Positions 14,325 to 26,868 of a DNA stretch of 41,925 bases are shown here, piece by piece. Under the pieces are notes generated by a model. That model saw nothing but the letters and a program-made list of their open reading frames with translations. It had not been told where the DNA came from and ran no database searches. Numbering within the stretch: the first letter of the stretch is position 1; each line of letters begins with the position of its first letter. This DNA comes from Bacteroidota bacterium (GTDB lineage Bacteria; Bacteroidota; Bacteroidia; Chitinophagales; Chitinophagaceae): positions 1 through 41,925 of the forward strand of contig CANJRV010000019.1 in NCBI GenBank assembly GCA_947476825.1, in the 5' to 3' direction. A program made the translations under genes and the position numbers.

Positions 14325-14405
14325 TATTGCGGCAACGATTGTAGTGGAAATCCTTTTTGCGGCGAAGCAAGCAAAAAGATTGAAACGGAAAGCGTGTGCG
14401 CCGCC
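14325..14405 (+). repeat. Dispersed intergenic repeat, copy 1 (conserved ends, hairpin core)
   Basis: 81 bp starting TATTGCGGCAACGAT and ending AGCGTGTGCGCCGCC. The core contains ATCCTTTTTGC and GCAAAAAGAT, which pair as a hairpin. The outer GCGGC and GCCGC can pair. It lies in the convergent gap 14162-14466. Other copies are at 18011, 25991 and 37898. Confidence 0.85.
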
Positions 14406-18010: not shown

Positions 18011-18143
18011 GGCGGCAGACACGTCCTGATGATAAATATCAGGATCCGTTTCTGCTTAAAACAACGCCATCCAGACTTTCCGTTCCAATCTTTTTGCTTG
18101 CTTCGTAGCAAAAAGGATTTCCACTACAATCGTTGCCGCAATA
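18011..18143 (-). repeat. Dispersed intergenic repeat, copy 2, with a 52-bp insertion
   Basis: Minus-strand copy of the element seen at 14325: it reads GGCGGCAGACACG on the plus strand and ends GCCGCAATA. After the first 13 bp there is an extra 52 bp (18024-18075) not present in the other copies, starting with the hairpin TCCTGAT/ATCAGGA. The rest of the core (18076-18143) matches copy 1 closely, including the TTTTTGC...GCAAAAA hairpin. It fills the gap 17937-18304, in which I see no gene. Confidence 0.8.
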
Positions 18144-20538: not shown

Positions 20539-21732
20539 TCAGTGATGAATTAATTCTTTAATTATTTGTTCAATCTCCGCATCATCTTTTTCTGAGTAGC
20601 CAATAGTTTGATGTTTCAGTTTCCCATTTTTGTCTATAATAAATAGAGTTGGATAACCTGATATTTCTAATGTATGCAAGCTTTTATCTTTGCTTACAAG
20701 CATCGGATAGTCTACTTTTTCTCGGGTTATAAATTGCATACATTTTTTTAATTTATAATCACTGGTGTCTATCATATTCACACCAATGACTTCAATGTCG
20801 TCGCCATATTGATGATATAATTTATTGAGAAATGGAACCGTTTTTGTGCAATAGAAACAAGAGCTATACCAAAAATCGTATACCTTTATTTTCGTTGGAT
20901 TTGATGTACTTACATATTTACTTTTCGTTTGTAGAATATTGCCATGGAATGTTGGAAATGTATATGTTGAATCATAAATAACTTCTTTGGGTTTATTTGA
21001 TCTGTGAAATACTATCAATGAATATTTAGATTCTATTTGATGGATTCTATTTTCAATATCTGTCACTTTTATTTTATCAAATTGAATATTTTTCAACGCC
21101 CATTCTTTGCGTTCTATTTGATCTTTGAGATAGGTAACACGTGAAATATATTCGATTTGATAGTTTGCTTTGTTAATAAGGATAGTTTTTTGGCAATCAT
21201 GAAAATCCTCATCATCTGGGAAGTTAATATGCACAAGTAGATATTTCATTTTATGCATAACTGTATCTTGCAAAGTAACTCTATTCGTTGTATCCAGCAT
21301 GGTTTGGATTAACTTGTCTGGTTTCAAAAAATAGGTGTTTATGAATTCGCCATCTATATTTCCTGTGATAGGAAATATTTCATTTTTGGCAGGATCAAAA
21401 CTGGTAAATTCTTTTTTATTGTAATTAAAAACGTATAGTTTATTCAGGTCATATATTTTTTCTGTATTCGATGTCGCATCTACTCTTGTATACGTAAACA
21501 AGCCATTAAAAATACTATCATCCATTTTTCTTATGACTTGGCAATGTCCATTCATTTTTAAAAATGTATCATCGTCGAAAGTTTTTATTTTATATGCTAC
21601 ATCATAGGAAATAGAACGATGGCTTTTGTACAACTCGACTACTTTATACACCAAGTCAATATTTTTTTGGCTGAATGTATTGAAAATACTGCAAATGAAT
21701 AGTGTGAAAAGTAGTGCAGGAAATTTAAACAT
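20539..21732 (-). CDS. TlpA-like exported thioredoxin-fold protein with a LytTR-type promoter
   Basis: 397 residues with a signal peptide ending FNTFSQ. Residues about 25-255 form a beta-rich domain with outer-membrane-lipoprotein-carrier character (KMDDSIFNGLFTYTRVD, KMKYLLVHINFPDDE). Residues about 255-397 are a TlpA-like thioredoxin fold with FWYSSCFYCTKTVP (Cys292, Cys295) and the cis-proline EISGYPTLF (Pro361). It probably reduces or oxidises disulfides in the periplasm. The start ATG is 26 bp from a promoter (21758) that has two upstream direct repeats matching those at 25880, so it likely belongs to the same LytTR regulon as 22772-25496. Confidence 0.82.
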   Translation of the reverse strand: MFKFPALLFTLFICSIFNTFSQKNIDLVYKVVELYKSHRSISYDVAYKIKTFDDDTFLKMNGHCQVIRKMDDSIFNGLFTYTRVDATSNTEKIYDLNKLYVFNYNKKEFTSFDPAKNEIFPITGNIDGEFINTYFLKPDKLIQTMLDTTNRVTLQDTVMHKMKYLLVHINFPDDEDFHDCQKTILINKANYQIEYISRVTYLKDQIERKEWALKNIQFDKIKVTDIENRIHQIESKYSLIVFHRSNKPKEVIYDSTYTFPTFHGNILQTKSKYVSTSNPTKIKVYDFWYSSCFYCTKTVPFLNKLYHQYGDDIEVIGVNMIDTSDYKLKKCMQFITREKVDYPMLVSKDKSLHTLEISGYPTLFIIDKNGKLKHQTIGYSEKDDAEIEQIIKELIHH

Positions 21733-21757: not shown

Positions 21758-21789
21758 CAAATATAAGATAATGAACCTCACGCTTGCAA
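21758..21789 (-). promoter_or_regulatory. Bacteroidota promoter of the TlpA-like gene
   Basis: On the minus strand TTG (21787-21789), exactly 21 nt, then TATATTTG (21758-21765). This is a full match to the TTG-N20ish-TAnnTTTG promoter. The start codon at 21732 would follow a leader of about 20 nt. The same boxes with the same 21-nt spacing occur at 25842-25873. Confidence 0.75.
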
Positions 21790-21795
21790 GAGGAA

Positions 21796-21828
21796 TTGAG
21801 TAACTCGGCAAATTCTTGAGTAACTCGG
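21796..21828 (-). promoter_or_regulatory. Direct-repeat operator, probable LytTR response-regulator site, copy 1
   Basis: Two copies of CCGAGTTACTCAA (minus strand) at 21796-21808 and 21816-21828, spaced exactly 20 bp start to start. The inner copy lies directly upstream of the -33 box. Paired direct repeats about 20-21 bp apart upstream of a promoter are the known arrangement for LytTR regulators such as AgrA and ComE. A LytTR response regulator is encoded at 26122-26868. Binding is inferred. Confidence 0.6.
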
Positions 21829-21926
21829 AATTTTGAAGGCTGATCAACATCAATCCACTGCTAATAGGTATGGAATGAACACCTAAGATGGCTTACTTGT
21901 TATAGGTATTGAATGAAGATATTAGC

Positions 21927-21948
21927 TGGCGCGGGTTTGCAACCCGTG
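21927..21948 (-). repeat. REP element, left copy flanking the transposase
   Basis: 22 bp that are the exact reverse complement of 22562-22583, with the core GGGTTTGCAACCC. Together they bracket the REP-associated transposase at 21966-22526. The core can form a short hairpin (GGGTT/AACCC). Confidence 0.85.
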
Positions 21949-21965
21949 CCTAAATTGTTTGTCTT

Positions 21966-22526
21966 TTATTCTGTAATAAATATTATGTCAAGTAGTCCAC
22001 AATTTTGGTTATAATAATAATCTCTCGCACTGCTGTATACATATGCTTCCGCATTATCTACATAAAATTCTGTCACAGGGTTATTGTGTACATATATTAA
22101 TTTTTGATGGATTACTTCTTCACTCCAAACTTCTAGAGGATGGTTATCTTGTCGCCAAAACTGATAATCTTTATTACCGCTATTAGCTTTACCAGCTTGA
22201 TTAAAAATGTCCAGCATCCATTCTCTTCTACTTTCATGTACATTATTTGAAATAGTCTTTATCATCAACTTACTTGTATGTTTCTTGAAATCACGAATTA
22301 TGTCTTGTAGTAAAAACCCTGTTTTAGCTCGGGCTATTAAATGCACATGATTTGTCATAATACACCATGCAAATATTTCCAGTCCTTTTTCATTTTGGCA
22401 ATACTTCAAATTTTCAACGATGATATTTTTGTACTCTTTTCGAGTAAATACATCTACCCATTCAACTGTAGCGAAACTAATAAAATAACATCCTTCACTA
22501 TTTTTGAACTTATATTTTGTACTCAT
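21966..22526 (-). CDS. REP-associated tyrosine transposase (RAYT), Y1/IS200-like
   Basis: 186 residues. The HUH motif NHVHLI (His60, His62) is preceded by IFAWCIMTN, and the C-terminal YVHNNPV with the upstream FWRQDNHPLEVW pattern is typical of RAYT proteins. These Y1 nucleases cut and join single-stranded REP hairpins and are thought to spread REP sequences. Flanking REP copies at 21927 and 22562 are exact inverted 22-mers, and three more tandem copies lie upstream of its start codon, which supports a recent or maintained association. Catalytic Tyr position was not assigned with confidence. It sits between genes of the same strand. Confidence 0.9.
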   Translation of the reverse strand: MSTKYKFKNSEGCYFISFATVEWVDVFTRKEYKNIIVENLKYCQNEKGLEIFAWCIMTNHVHLIARAKTGFLLQDIIRDFKKHTSKLMIKTISNNVHESRREWMLDIFNQAGKANSGNKDYQFWRQDNHPLEVWSEEVIHQKLIYVHNNPVTEFYVDNAEAYVYSSARDYYYNQNCGLLDIIFITE

Positions 22527-22561
22527 TTATTTTAATGATTTGTAATTTTTTGATTAGAGGT

Positions 22562-22725
22562 CACGGGTTGCAAACCCGCGCCAGCGAATAACTTTAGCGT
22601 ATTTTGAAGGCATTGTCACGGGTTGTAAACTCGCGCCAGCGAATGACAGCGAATAGCTTTAGGGTATTTTATGGGCATTGTCACTGGTTGCAAACCCTCG
22701 CCAGCGAAAGACTTTAGGGCATATT
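22562..22725 (-). repeat. Three tandem REP units upstream of the RAYT gene
   Basis: Unit 1 starts at 22562, unit 2 at 22617 and unit 3 at 22682 (periods 55 and 65 bp). Each has the core CACGGGTTGCAAACC followed by CGCGCCAGCGAA and a spacer containing CTTTAG.GTATTTT. Units 2 and 3 differ from unit 1 by a few bases in the core and unit 2 carries a partial duplication (GACAGCGAAT). The first unit is the exact inverse of the left REP copy. Confidence 0.85.
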
Positions 22726-22771
22726 AATTCAAGACATGTATTGTACTTTTTTTGAATAATATTCTTTTATT

Positions 22772-23809
22772 CTACAAATGATTATTCAAATAAAACCCTA
22801 AGGATAATTGATTCAGAATTAGAGGTTTTGGGTTGAGCGAACTGTTAAAAGAAATTTTACTTCGAAGTGTGAGTCGCACATATTTTAGCAGAATAATATG
22901 TAAGGCATTATTGGCATCGATTGAATAATAATGAATATCTCCAAGATGATTGAGTGGAGTAAACATATTGCCATAAAATTCCCAATGAAAATATTTGTTG
23001 AGGTGTTGCATGGGAACTGTCGTGGTAAGTGTTGCGCCAAATTCTGCTTTTTTGCGTTGACCTTTATCGAGTCCATTAATGTTTTCAACTTCTCTCGATT
23101 CAAATATTTTTTGGTTTCGAATTTTAGTAACTTTACTACTTCCCAAACCAAGATTAATTGTTGCATTTTGTGGACCTTCATACGTGATGCCACCTGCATA
23201 GAATATAGTGCCAGGGCTCATGAAACCATCATAGAGGTAGCGTTCATTTGCACCGCTTATGCTGTTTCTATATTGATGTGTATTCCAAAGTTTGGTTTGT
23301 GTATTTGCAGTAAGTGAGATGTATAATTTCTTTTTGTAGAATGGATAATACACACTGTTTTTGAAATTTAATTGATCTTGTGTTTTCATAGTGGTACTAT
23401 CAAAAAAATGGCGAACACCGTAATCATTGAATAGGTAAGTATCCCATTTTAATTTACGATATTCTATATTGTTTTTGATATCCATATTGTAATAGAAGTA
23501 GACATTATTGATGTCGTTGCTATTGTTGCTATTGAAATTTTTGATTATCGTTAAGGTGGTGTACACATCATAATATAAAATCCAATGAAAGGTGCGTTTA
23601 GCAATTTGCGCTGCATCGATCTTGGAGTTAATATGAGGAGCAGGTGTATACCGAACAGTATCCAAATAATAGGGGATTATTTGTTGTAGGTATGCAGGGA
23701 TTATTGGGTTAATGGAATCATTTTTGTGTGGAAATAAAATGCTTGTTTGCGCTGGAGCACTGAGGCTCCAGACGCAAGCGAAGCAGATGAGTAAATAGAA
23801 TTTACACAT
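22772..23809 (-). CDS. DUF3078-like outer-membrane beta-barrel protein
   Basis: 345 residues, signal peptide ending LSAPAQ. The second half matches the Bacteroidota DUF3078 barrel pattern: FMSPGTIFYAGGITYEG, then NLGLGSSKVTKIRNQ, GQRKKAEFGATLTT and terminal strands ending LSLGFYLNNHL. The N-terminal 130 residues are less familiar. It is the last gene of the run starting at the 25842 promoter and begins 17 bp after the 23827 stop, so it is likely co-transcribed. The function of DUF3078 barrels is unknown; here, an outer-membrane partner for the small secreted proteins is an inference from position. Confidence 0.6.
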   Translation of the reverse strand: MCKFYLLICFACVWSLSAPAQTSILFPHKNDSINPIIPAYLQQIIPYYLDTVRYTPAPHINSKIDAAQIAKRTFHWILYYDVYTTLTIIKNFNSNNSNDINNVYFYYNMDIKNNIEYRKLKWDTYLFNDYGVRHFFDSTTMKTQDQLNFKNSVYYPFYKKKLYISLTANTQTKLWNTHQYRNSISGANERYLYDGFMSPGTIFYAGGITYEGPQNATINLGLGSSKVTKIRNQKIFESREVENINGLDKGQRKKAEFGATLTTTVPMQHLNKYFHWEFYGNMFTPLNHLGDIHYYSIDANNALHIILLKYVRLTLRSKISFNSSLNPKPLILNQLSLGFYLNNHL

Positions 23810-23826
23810 AACGGTTGGGGTTTTAT

Positions 23827-24228
23827 TTACTCGTGAAAAACGACAGTATATATTTTATTTTTATACTGCATGGGATATATTCCTTTCTTAATTTTATAGT
23901 CTTTTGGCATTTGTAAGGCAATTGCCACATCATCTGGAATGCTAAAATCTTCTTCCAAAGGGAACTCCGATTTATTGCTTAGCAAGCCAGCAAATATGCC
24001 GTTGAGATCAATGTCTTCTTGTTTGAATTCCATACTAAAACTTTGGGCATTGGGTTCGGCGAAAACATAAGTTGCTTTTATGGTATTCGCTACTTTTGCA
24101 GGACAATTAAAGGCGAGTCCTTTGCAGTCACTTGCACGACCAATGGTTACATTTTTTTCGATTTTACCTGAAGTGATAATAAGACAGAGGCAAATTAAGA
24201 ATAAGCTGAGGGATAAAGTTTGTTTCAT
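23827..24228 (-). CDS. Small secreted cysteine-containing protein B (paralogue of 25077-25496)
   Basis: 133 residues with a signal peptide (about 1-20). The mature N-terminus carries VTIGRASDCKGLAFNC, like VGFTIGKASKNCEKFGLC in the protein at 25077-25496. The C-terminus IYPMQYKNKIYTVVF resembles KYPLSYNNGVYSITI of the same protein. Both therefore belong to one family of small, all-beta-looking exported proteins with a conserved cysteine pair near the N-terminus. I do not recognise a named domain. It lies between a thioredoxin-like lipoprotein and a DUF3078-like barrel, all on one strand. Confidence 0.7.
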   Translation of the reverse strand: MKQTLSLSLFLICLCLIITSGKIEKNVTIGRASDCKGLAFNCPAKVANTIKATYVFAEPNAQSFSMEFKQEDIDLNGIFAGLLSNKSEFPLEEDFSIPDDVAIALQMPKDYKIKKGIYPMQYKNKIYTVVFHE

Positions 24229-24307
24229 AACGTTTTTGGTTTTGAGGGTTTGTAATGGTGTTTGATTTAGTCAGGATATAAGCGAATTCAAAGATGTATT
24301 AGAAGAT

Positions 24308-24421
24308 TTAATTCTTGATTTCTTCTTTAGGAGGGTCCATGTTTAGACCAACAATAATTATTTCTTTTTTATAAGGTAGGAGTTCTTTGTTACTTGCTAA
24401 AAAATAGTGCCTAGAATTAAA
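24308..24421 (-). pseudogene. Remnant resembling the C-terminus of the 24438-24995 lipoprotein family
   Basis: A 37-codon open stretch without a start codon sits in the 209-bp gap between two genes of the operon. It reads HYFLASNKELLPYKKEIIIV and then GLNMDPP. The pattern K-[KL]-[EK]-[IV]-x-I-[VI]-x-L-N-x-D aligns with KLKVCIILLNEDNLY at the end of the gene at 24438, and with no frame break. I read it as the tail of a deleted tandem duplicate. It is short, so chance similarity is possible. Confidence 0.45.
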
Positions 24422-24437
24422 TTATTTGAAATAGAGT

Positions 24438-24995
24438 TTAATATAAATTATCTTCATTTAACAAAATGATGCATACCTTTAATTTAGTAGAATTGTATAG
24501 ATCTGAAACTGTATTAAATAAAGCCTTTGTAAGCTTTGGTGTAAATTTTGCCCATCCGGCAATTAAATAGTAATCATACTTTTCGTATCTGTATTTTTCT
24601 TGAATAGCTTTCGTTTGTTGCAGGAAATTATCATATGCATTATTTGAATTTTTTATTGGAATGAATATTGTATCTTTTCTTATCGCATCCATGGCTTTCC
24701 AATGGCAAGTTTCACCACCTTCATTAAAAATTAAATTTCTATTTTTGTCAAATATCATAATACTTGGTAATGTGAATTTATTCTTTAAGAGTGTCGCATA
24801 AGTTTCCTCATCTTTTATCATATACAAGGCATCATACGGTACCTTCTTTTTGTTGCAGAATTGTAGTATAGAGTTTTTGCTTTCTTGTTTTGGTGTAATG
24901 TAATTGCCAGAAGCTCGCAATATTAATTTGGAACAAGAGCTAAATAAAGAAGTTGCCAAAAGTATGGTGAGAAAAATTTGTTTAGAGTGATACAT
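24438..24995 (-). CDS. Thioredoxin-like lipoprotein of unknown function
   Basis: 185 residues with a lipobox LFSSC (Cys21) after a hydrophobic signal. The segment LPSIMIFDKNRNLIFNEGG resembles the cis-proline strand and following hairpin of a thioredoxin fold, but there is no CxxC. Cysteines are in LQFCNKKK and GGETCHW. It may be a redox-inactive or single-cysteine partner of the small cysteine proteins on either side. No named family is recognised with certainty. The unit is 42 bp from the hairpin after 25077 and likely part of the same transcript. Confidence 0.55.
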   Translation of the reverse strand: MYHSKQIFLTILLATSLFSSCSKLILRASGNYITPKQESKNSILQFCNKKKVPYDALYMIKDEETYATLLKNKFTLPSIMIFDKNRNLIFNEGGETCHWKAMDAIRKDTIFIPIKNSNNAYDNFLQQTKAIQEKYRYEKYDYYLIAGWAKFTPKLTKALFNTVSDLYNSTKLKVCIILLNEDNLY

Positions 24996-25037
24996 ATTTG
25001 TTCGATTGTTATTTTTATTATCAAATTTTTCATTTTG

Positions 25038-25073
25038 AAATGATACCCCTACTTGAATGTAGGGGTATCATTT
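25038..25073 (-). terminator. Intra-operon hairpin after the first small secreted gene
   Basis: A perfect 15-bp stem (AAATGATACCCCTAC, 6-nt loop and its complement) starts 4 bp beyond the stop at 25077. On the minus strand the hairpin is followed by only a weak T-stretch, so partial termination or mRNA-end protection with read-through into 24995 is the natural reading. It would make the first gene more abundant than the rest. Confidence 0.65.
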
Positions 25074-25076
25074 TTA

Positions 25077-25496
25077 TTAAAGAGAAATAGTAATGGAATA
25101 AACACCATTATTGTATGATAGTGGATATTTTCCAACATTAACTATTAAGGAAGTTCTAGAGCCGAGTGCATTACTTATTTCTTCAGGACATATCCAGATT
25201 TCATCAAATGTTATATAATTTTGCCCTTGAAAATAGAATAGCTTGTCATGTTGTAGAGCAATTAAATCACTTTCTGATAGTGTAATCGTTAATGTACCAG
25301 CATCCTCATCTAAATCTAAACCTCCTTTAATCATTGTCTTATCGCCATCTATTGTCACTTTACAGAGTCCAAATTTTTCACAATTTTTACTTGCTTTGCC
25401 AATGGTAAATCCAACTGTAATATGAATTTTTGGTTTAGCTGTAGTGTGAAGTGCAATTGAAGAAATTACAATCATCATTAAAATAATTTTTTTCAT
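25077..25496 (-). CDS. Small secreted cysteine-containing protein A
   Basis: 139 residues from the ATG at 25496. The frame could extend upstream to a TTG at 25568, but the ATG gives a proper signal peptide (MKKIILMMIVISSIALHTTA). The mature protein begins KPKIHITVGFTIGKASKNC and has Cys pair NCEKFGLC, then a predicted all-beta body (GTLTITLSESDLIALQ) and the C-terminal KYPLSYNNGVYSITI. It is a paralogue of 23827-24228. It is the first gene after the LytTR-type promoter at 25842 and is followed directly by a strong hairpin, which suits a highly expressed product. Function is unknown. Confidence 0.72.
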   Translation of the reverse strand: MKKIILMMIVISSIALHTTAKPKIHITVGFTIGKASKNCEKFGLCKVTIDGDKTMIKGGLDLDEDAGTLTITLSESDLIALQHDKLFYFQGQNYITFDEIWICPEEISNALGSRTSLIVNVGKYPLSYNNGVYSITISL

Positions 25497-25841
25497 AACA
25501 TATTTGGCTTTACTGTAGGCAGCCTTACCTTTATTTGTTTGTTTTTTTTGCCTACTCAATTCAAGCAATTTCGGCTTCCAGCTTTTTTGTTTTTACACCT
25601 AATGTTTAAAAACGGGCATTCGGTTTTGTACATCCGTAATATTCCATTCTCTATTTGCACTTCATCCTTTAGGTTTAGAATCTGTTTAGTTTTTTCAGTA
25701 GCTAGTCTCGTCTTTTACTAGTCATTACTGGGTTGTCTCTAACATGAATCAAGCACAGTGGAGAAATGAAAAATTACCAATCGTACTTTGTACTTTTCAT
25801 AACGTGTTCTTTTGTATTTCAAATAACTTTTGCTAGCGACA
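25497..25841 (-). other. Long 5' leader between the LytTR promoter and gene 25077-25496
   Basis: The predicted transcription start near 25835 is about 340 nt from the ATG at 25496. I see no complete gene in this leader. A 46-codon open stretch without ATG (minus strand, ending TGA near 25559) includes RMYKTECPFLNIRCKNKK, which looks protein-like but is unidentified. No known riboswitch motif was recognised. Confidence 0.4.
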
Positions 25842-25873
25842 CAAATATAATATCATGGCTCTCGCGCTTGCAA
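25842..25873 (-). promoter_or_regulatory. Bacteroidota promoter for the secreted-protein operon
   Basis: Minus-strand TTG (25871-25873), 21 nt, TATATTTG (25842-25849). This is the same pair of boxes and the same spacing as at 21758-21789; the sequence between (CAAGCG and GAG) is largely shared too. It points toward gene 25077-25496. Confidence 0.75.
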
Positions 25874-25879
25874 GAGGAA

Positions 25880-25912
25880 TTGAGTAACTCGGAATATTCT
25901 TGAGTAACTCGG
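25880..25912 (-). promoter_or_regulatory. Direct-repeat operator, probable LytTR response-regulator site, copy 2
   Basis: Two copies of CCGAGTTACTCAA (minus strand) at 25880-25892 and 25900-25912, again exactly 20 bp apart and abutting the -33 region. Same arrangement as 21796-21828. It lies 209 bp from the stop of the LytTR regulator gene. Confidence 0.6.
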
Positions 25913-25990
25913 AATTTTTGGTACTTTTTTAGGAAAAAAATGCGAAACAATAAAGTGCAATAAGTCAGAAAAAACTTCTTTAATAGATGC

Positions 25991-26070
25991 ATTGCGGCAA
26001 CGATAGAAGTGGAAATCCTTTTTGCTTGCTTTGAAGCAAAAAGATTGGAACGGATAGCGTGTTCGCCGCC
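25991..26070 (+). repeat. Dispersed intergenic repeat, copy 3
   Basis: 80 bp starting ATTGCGGCAACGATAGAAG and ending AGCGTGTTCGCCGCC. The core has a 10-bp perfect hairpin CTTTTTGCTT/AAGCAAAAAG. It lies just downstream of the LytTR regulator stop. Confidence 0.85.
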
Positions 26071-26121
26071 CAAATTATTTTCATTAGAATTTTAGTATGG
26101 CAGAAAAAATAGACTGTTCTC

Positions 26122-26868
26122 TCAAAACTGAATTCTTTCCATCACCTCTTTTTTATAGGTTGCGGATATTGGAATTTCTACATTGTCGCACATCACTAGA
26201 TTCCCAAATTTGGATGGTACGTATTTGTGAATCTGTTTGATATTGATGATATGCGAATGATGTACGCGAATGAATATAGTCTGTGGTAATTTCTTTTCGT
26301 AGTCCTTTAATGTTTTCGAGATAGTATGTTTTTTGCCGTCGGTTGTATACACTTTGGTGTAATTGCTCATGGCTTCCAAACGTATGATATCCGCTGTGCT
26401 GACGATAGTTTTTGCTTCGTGCGAAATGGGCAGTGCTATATATATTTCAGTGTTTGGTTTTTCTTGAACAACAGATTGTACCAAATGTATTTTTTTCTGC
26501 ACCCTTTTTACGGCTTCTATAAATTGCGAAATGACTAATGGCTTCAATAAAAAATGCGTGACTTCATGGTTAAAGGCTTCAGACGCATATTGCTTGTGAC
26601 CCGTTACCATCACCACATGCATGGATTCTAACTGTGCATTTTGTAAAAGATCAAATCCATTTTTATCATTGATTTCTATGTCTAAAAAAAGAAGATCGGG
26701 TTTGTATTGTTGAATAAGCGTAAGGCCTTCATGGTAATTGGTTGCGGTGGCTACTAATTCAATTTCTGGACAATAGGTACGGGCAAAGCTGCTTAATAAT
26801 TTGATGTTTAATTTTTCGTCATCAATAATAATGGTGCGAATCAGGTCATTGTTTTTCTGCTTGCTCAT
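26122..26868 (-). CDS. LytTR-family response regulator
   Basis: 248 residues. Receiver domain about 10-125 with acidic pocket DDE (16-18), phospho-acceptor Asp63 in FLDIEI, Thr89 in VMVTGH and Lys109 in FLLKP. LytTR DNA-binding domain about 148-248 (IIRLEAMSNYTKVYT, IFIRVHHSHIINIKQI). It is a transcriptional activator type whose members bind paired direct repeats. No histidine kinase of the usual membrane LytS/YpdA type lies in the window, so it is an orphan here. Its likely targets are the two matching direct-repeat promoters at 21796 and 25880. Followed downstream by repeat copy 3. Confidence 0.93.
   Translation of the reverse strand: MSKQKNNDLIRTIIIDDEKLNIKLLSSFARTYCPEIELVATATNYHEGLTLIQQYKPDLLFLDIEINDKNGFDLLQNAQLESMHVVMVTGHKQYASEAFNHEVTHFLLKPLVISQFIEAVKRVQKKIHLVQSVVQEKPNTEIYIALPISHEAKTIVSTADIIRLEAMSNYTKVYTTDGKKHTISKTLKDYEKKLPQTIFIRVHHSHIINIKQIHKYVPSKFGNLVMCDNVEIPISATYKKEVMERIQF

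Follow-up and report, generated by a model that had tools for sequence, protein, structure and literature searches.

Which protein recognizes the pair of direct repeats that stands, in one and the same design, before two operons of a Bacteroidota genome (family Chitinophagaceae)? The two elements, sites A and B, lie on the minus strand of a 41,925-nucleotide (nt) stretch of contig CANJRV010000019.1, hereafter the window; its own genome is labelled G000. A response regulator with a LytTR DNA-binding domain is encoded 209 bp from site B. Our reading, to which we give a probability of about 70%, is that this orphan regulator binds the repeat pair and activates a small regulon. The pair is probably the regulator's docking site, because the layout recurs before secreted-protein genes here and, with other letters, in relatives.

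The initial annotation of the window had described, at two places, paired repeats 20 bp apart followed by TTG, exactly 21 nt and a promoter box, a design seen nowhere else in the window, with a LytTR response regulator at 209 bp from one site. All of this is borne out. On the minus strand both sites read CCGAGTTACTCAA, 7 nt, CCGAGTTACTCAA, 6 nt, TTG, 21 nt, TATATTTG (Table 1). The four other matches to the 13-mer in the window each carry three mismatches, and because these are counted the window total of eight is at the level of shuffled sequence (mean 6.82). When the window was shuffled 200 times with its dinucleotides preserved, a shuffle contained on average 0.035 exact 13-mer pairs with a period of 18-24, and none had the same pair at two distant places. 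Sites A and B are far beyond chance.

The regulator itself is a two-domain protein. Its receiver scores 62 bits against Response_reg (cut-off 30.2), with D16, D17, D63 and K109 invariant in 10 aligned sequences, and its C-terminal part scores 71 bits against LytTR (cut-off 22.6), with a FIRVHHSH stretch in which R201 and H203 are invariant in the alignment; the corresponding AgrA motif is FFRCHNS (PMC4227749). Pfam upholds the redoxin/TlpA-like and DUF3078 assignments as well as that of the regulator. Among 52 matches to PDB sequences, all cover the receiver domain except the LytTR-only entry 3d6w. A LytTR Regulatory System consists of a receiverless LytTR protein encoded with an inhibitory membrane protein; the window protein has a receiver and no such neighbour, its neighbours being a methyltransferase and secreted proteins. 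Part of that definition is to be found in PMC11347149.

Searching the complete genome (3,297,158 bases, 184 contigs) with up to three mismatches gave three sites, namely A, B and one on contig C44, and no control matches. The initial annotation had considered that the repeats might lie upstream of many unrelated genes, or in genomes lacking the regulator. Instead, each of the three sites in this 3.3-Mb genome precedes a secreted-protein or TlpA-like operon. From the end of the C44 site it is 272 bp to the ATG of a 95-amino-acid (aa) secreted protein; next come a protein of 337 aa and one of 139 aa with a weak likeness to MauE (15.3 bits, cut-off 27). The C44 site keeps the repeats, AAGAAT after the first repeat, and TTG plus 21 nt. 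Among 149 genomes the motif is confined to G000 and one congener, G001, and among the 39 genomes searched for regulator orthologs it is G001 that encodes a protein 94% identical (E 1.3e-152); the next best match outside G000 is a 43% homolog in G006 (E 1.3e-63). No genome with the motif but without a close regulator was therefore found in these sets.

In G001 the two sites are at syntenic places, the first 208 bp past the regulator and the second between a DUF3078 gene and a dipeptidyl-peptidase-like gene. The genes after the second site encode proteins of 299, 73 and 276 aa (the last with a thioredoxin-like domain), as against the single 397-aa redoxin protein of the window, so the cargo differs at a site that has been kept. 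The five sites of G000 and G001 share the extended sequence CCGAGTTACTCAAGAATnnnCCGAGTTACTCAATTyCyyTT(g/t)CA, and all 26 of the 26 repeat positions are invariant.

Could the sites simply be recent copies of a duplicated promoter cassette that has no dedicated regulator? With an identity of 88% over 91 bp, sites A and B may have a recent common origin, and an identity of 92% over 275 aligned columns suggests a duplication for the two G001 sites; site A also has a Y1 transposase gene (21966-22526) next to it. Against this, the C44 site has exact repeats in differing surroundings: more than about 10 bp upstream or about 70 bp downstream of the site start, 0-6 letters agree in a 10-bp block, and 7 do in single blocks. 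The 20-bp period is also kept in other species with changed repeat letters, which copying alone would not give. We consider a bare cassette very unlikely.

The evidence from those other species comes from three congeners. In G005, whose genome is one contig of 4.27 Mb, the pair TTCCCTCAA-N11-TTCCCTCAA has the same period and occurs twice when up to two mismatches are allowed; the same search gave no match in 13 other congeners and none in controls. The two copies are 156 and 262 bp downstream of two LytTR regulator genes (65.9 and 63.5 bits, above the LytTR cut-off). G005 has 29 regulator matches, and the zones within 300 bp downstream of these amount by our arithmetic to about 0.2% of the genome. 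The first locus holds, in order, the best regulator homolog (42%), a secreted-protein homolog, a DUF3078-like gene and the second LytTR regulator. Its site lies between regulator and secreted protein and reads TTTCCTCAA-N11-TTCCCTCAA, TTG, 20 nt, TAGGTTTG. The second site follows the second regulator and precedes a 41-codon reading frame, with the box TACTTTTA in place of TAnnTTTG. The examination of RNA leaders brought up a further G005 site (L211), composed of three repeats with a period of 20 bp, GTTCACTCAAGAAT, GTTTACTAACAAG and GCTGACTCAATAT (the third by eye). This site precedes a secreted-family member (24.8 bits, profile A1), and a search of the surrounding 18 kb found no LytTR gene.

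A third version of the repeat, CGCTGAATAAAA, has six copies in G008 and one in G013 when up to three mismatches are allowed, with no control matches (8 congeners). The G008 targets are a secreted-family protein and proteins of 312, 170, 163, 684 and 440 aa, and one of these G008 sites and the G013 site precede homologous genes (69% over 685 columns). A degenerate copy is visible by eye before the secreted protein of G013:C230. The layout is kept while the repeat letters differ between species. These versions also bear on a structural reading, in which the repeats would be an element of DNA or RNA such as a hairpin. GAGTTACTC is indeed self-complementary around its centre (the short palindrome GAGT-T-ACTC). 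The palindrome is kept neither in the G005 version nor in that of G008, and the repeats are upstream of the predicted promoter and therefore outside its transcript. We rejected this reading, which is barely credible.

A scan that was not tuned to the motif points to the same period. We scored 12-mer pairs ending 18-36 nt upstream of 478 TAnnTTTG boxes in 26 loci, at periods of 16-25. Scores of at least 10 were obtained seven times at period 20, once at period 21 and never at the eight others (16-19 and 22-25); because a locus was included only if it had the third site, a LytTR gene or a member of the secreted family, these counts give no genome-wide rate. The seven are the four window and G001 sites, two new CGCTGAATAAAA sites in G008 and an AT-rich pair at L012:7038 that may be due to chance. 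The G005 pair comes next, at 8.65.

Wider searches returned little beyond the genus. A scan of one genome per species for exact GAGTTACTC-N10-12-GAGTTACTC, from which the records of the window itself were possibly excluded, gave 61 stretches that we judged by eye with their flanks. The same element is in one of these, L094, which is the G001 contig; the other G001 site straddles the border of an 8-kb stretch and was not returned, so the scan can miss sites. Nineteen of the 61 contain AGCAAG(G/T)TATGTTTTGAGTTACTCAAAACC (once a close variant) with period 19, probably a mobile element, and many of the remainder are tandem arrays or single matches. A CTCAA-pair pattern searched in 296 relatives matched in 11 genomes. 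Five places in three congeneric genomes are all at loci described here, and outside the genus there are eight places against control matches in five genomes, so there is no signal outside the genus.

A LytTR regulator adjoins the secreted family in G000, G001, G005, G004 and G082 (confirmed by Pfam). The G004 locus contains a histidine kinase, the regulator, a secreted protein and then a thioredoxin-like protein (by eye), and G082, which belongs to another genus, has a kinase and a regulator in divergent orientation. Profiles of the regulator and the secreted protein used in the locus surveys include several of the sequences that the surveys then detect, and such matches are by construction; the Pfam tests of the neighbouring genes are among the checks that are independent of this. 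Since a kinase is next to the homologous regulator in G004 and in G006, we infer that the window regulator has lost its kinase and that an ancestral kinase-regulator pair was split. The syntenic locus in G009 (LamG, methyltransferase, DUF3078 and secreted proteins) encodes a propeller-type histidine kinase with no adjacent regulator (L139 2235-5198), a mirror image of the window with its regulator and no kinase. In G082 we also observed two similar sets of genes flanking the LytTR locus (L136 6149-8125 and 13262-15649), each with a small secreted protein, a protein of about 200 aa and a larger membrane-like protein (by eye); one includes a DCC1-like thiol-disulfide oxidoreductase (64.9 bits).

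Several observations weigh against our reading. The own genome holds eight matches to the regulator (2 to 51 per genome across the 39 genomes), and the pair could be bound by a paralog instead. At -33, one G001 site of the two reads TTT in place of TTG, and the -7 box of the C44 site, TATTTTGT, departs from TAnnTTTG, yet fits the variant TAnnTTGY known from Flavobacterium psychrophilum (PMC9723704). The 95-aa C44 protein matches only itself in 149 genomes. G006 has a propeller kinase, the 43% regulator and LamG, and neither the pair nor the secreted protein. In G326 a LytTR gene shares a stretch with a weak family match (27.5 bits), at a distance of about 8.6 kb. The remaining family loci that were fetched, several of them on short contigs, showed no LytTR gene; these are the loci of G112, G008, G002, G235, G182, G163, G013, G453, G476, G046, G495, G394 and G011, a second locus of G009 and the one further locus of G005. 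No clear pair was found at the secreted-protein loci of G002 (a 3.2-kb contig), G004 (kinase and regulator) and G009 (kinase), and G011 has a pair with a 22-bp period in place of 20. The stretches fetched around the seven G008 and G013 sites, several of them on short contigs, revealed no LytTR gene, and this is a gap in the argument.

These points can be turned into a different explanation, that the pair is the target of another DNA-binding protein, whether an unrelated activator or a further LytTR paralog, and the adjacent regulator is incidental. The eight regulator matches in the own genome, the fetched G008 and G013 stretches without a LytTR gene, and the G004 locus, with regulator and secreted protein and no clear pair, would all fit. 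Set against them, the site is 156-262 bp past a LytTR regulator gene, in the same orientation, in G000, in G001 and twice in G005. We think another binder rather unlikely. The link between regulator and sites proposed in the initial annotation thus has comparative support, above all from the diverged pair of the same period, and of almost unchanged promoter spacing, that twice directly follows a LytTR regulator gene in G005, while the binding itself is inferred.

Binding by the regulator would place the system in well-known company. A LytTR site, as published, has two 9-11-nt repeats that are 11-13 nt apart, which makes a period of about 20-24, and no consensus is common to these sites (PMC4847170). 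It is in the period that the five G000 and G001 sites agree with this: all have period 20, a 9-nt core plus 11 nt, and counted as 13-mers the repeats leave a spacer of 7. For the majority of LytTR regulators, binding upstream of -35 and activation are described (PMC11347149), and AgrA binds two direct repeats upstream of promoters with longer-than-optimal spacers (PMC4227749). TAnnTTTG is the sigma-A -7 consensus in Flavobacterium psychrophilum (PMC9723704). The repeats here are likewise upstream of a predicted promoter, with TTG 6 nt past the second repeat and TATATTTG 21 nt further on. The TTG corresponds to the -33 element of Bacteroidota promoters.

As the sites match published operators in their 20-bp period, in the position of the repeats upstream of the -33 TTG and in the 21-nt spacer, we favour activation by a pair of regulators over repression. 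Two regulator molecules would sit side by side on the two repeats, on one face of the helix, and the bound pair, directly upstream of the -33 element, would recruit RNA polymerase to the TTG/TAnnTTTG promoter. Phosphorylation would presumably take place at D63. The regulon would comprise three operons, those behind site B (small secreted proteins, lipoprotein and DUF3078 protein), site A (the TlpA-like redoxin protein) and the C44 site (the 95-aa secreted protein and two further genes).

The closest counterparts are YpdB with yhjX and AgrA with P2-P3, which combine a receiver and LytTR domain with a promoter preceded by a pair of direct repeats at a distance of about two helical turns, and which have no consensus in common across systems (PMC4847170, PMC4227749). 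The window system differs from these in its orphan regulator, its TTG/TAnnTTTG promoters, its other repeat and its undescribed secreted-family targets. CoxC, discussed with RcoM, binds direct repeats at two-helical-turn spacing, 18-21 bp (PMC11347149), and a three-repeat site is also seen by eye in G005 (L211). Unlike the window protein, which has a receiver and a pair upstream of -33, CoxC represses, and senses CO by a membrane MHYT domain.

Table 1. Positions of the sites, genes and RNA-like elements discussed (window coordinates unless a contig or stretch is named).
Feature	Position	Strand	Evidence or remark
Site B paired direct repeat, CCGAGTTACTCAA x2, 20-bp period; candidate binding site of the small secreted-protein operon	25880..25912 (25880-25892 + 25900-25912)	-	exact; conserved in G001
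Site B promoter-like stretch: TTG 25871-25873, 21 nt, TATATTTG 25842-25849	25842..25873	-	sequence
Site A paired direct repeat, CCGAGTTACTCAA x2, 20-bp period	21796..21828 (21796-21808 + 21816-21828)	-	exact
Site A promoter-like stretch: TTG 21787-21789, 21 nt, TATATTTG 21758-21765	21758..21789	-	sequence
Third site, other contig	G000:C44:15853-15885		motif search
Orphan response regulator, receiver + LytTR DNA-binding domain, 248 aa	26122..26868	-	LytTR 1e-19, Response_reg 7.2e-17
5' leader, about 340 nt, promoter B to first small-protein reading frame	25497..25841	-	conserved in G001
Small secreted protein, 139 aa from ATG, family A1, two conserved cysteines	25077..25496	-	no Pfam/NCBIfam match; secretion by eye from N-terminus
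Probable lipoprotein (by eye), 185 aa	24438..24995	-	no family match
Second small secreted protein, family A1, 133 aa	23827..24228	-	family A1 comparison
DUF3078-type protein, last gene of operon	22772..23809	-	PF11276 26.3 bits, cut-off 25
TlpA-like protein, C-terminal redoxin/thioredoxin domain, target of promoter A	20539..21732	-	Redoxin 2.6e-13
Secreted-family members	window 25077-25496, 23827-24228; L024 2537-2953; L211 1584-1865	- (window members)	family comparison
DUF805b-like RNA element in leader B	25549..25584	-	23.3 bits, below curated cut-off 35.6 (RF02914)
DUF805b leaders	window 25549-25584 (-); L174 1381-1413; L140 884-919; L188-L217	- (window copy)	RNA search

The target proteins are themselves largely undescribed. 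Neither the small secreted proteins nor the 185-aa protein have a match in Pfam or NCBIfam. The predicted structure of the small secreted protein has a mean predicted local distance difference test score (pLDDT) of 82.4, and no fold match was found in the PDB (best E 0.17), so the fold gives no function. With profile A4, 9 of 14 congeners have members of this protein family, and with profile A1, 16 of 394 family genomes do. Two cysteines and a Gly close to the C terminus are conserved in these proteins, whose genes are often found beside DUF3078, thioredoxin-like and lipoprotein-like genes.

Some leaders of pair-bearing genes resemble the DUF805b RNA. The window copy scores too low to be classed as a member of that family (Table 1). 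Above the cut-off are G008:C201, which has the pair, and G002:C184, which has the secreted family and no clear pair; three more G008 sites score 20-22 bits. DUF805b matches at E 0.05 occur in 13 of 14 congeners, 7 of them above the cut-off, and in 5 of 14 control genomes, all weak and none above it. DUF805b leaders are thus frequent in the genus, before some secreted-family operons among others. Only 2 of 30 DUF805b loci have a period-20 pair scoring at least 10 (one more has a period-21 pair of 10.1 far upstream), so we rejected DUF805b as a marker of the regulon and regard it as a second, wider layer.

Two further features are worth recording for the window. Flavo-1 RNA (RF01705) has three copies above the cut-off, at 25992-26068 (+, 63.3 bits), 14327-14403 (+, 52.1 bits) and 18065-18141 (-, 43.9 bits). 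The highest-scoring copy sits in the interval that separates the regulator from site B, on the strand opposite to both, and has a conserved counterpart in G001 (61.7 bits). The Y1 transposase adjoining site A is IS200-like (PF01797) and is flanked by short GC-rich repeat copies at about 21930-21955, 22560-22585, 22617-22645 and 22680-22708 (by eye). Together these resemble a REP-associated transposase unit; the transposase reading frame was not found in the syntenic G001 interval.

What may these results mean for the lineage? It is conceivable, and in our view improbable, that these Bacteroidota keep small secreted cysteine proteins, with TlpA-like and DUF3078 partners, under LytTR control through operators rewritten in each species (CCGAGTTACTCAA, TTCCCTCAA and CGCTGAATAAAA) at a fixed 20-bp period, much like the peptide-signalling and bacteriocin systems of Firmicutes, with the secreted proteins as signals or antagonists. 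The titles and opening abstract lines of the open-licence papers that our searches listed yielded no mapped LytTR operator for the phylum. The case for a known kind of regulation is well supported; its natural series of operator versions is unusual and its target family undescribed. The locus offers a concrete, testable operator that nature has varied in three sequence versions. It also connects an unannotated family of secreted proteins with a regulator. With repeats that change from species to species at a fixed period, the co-evolution of regulator and operator becomes testable.

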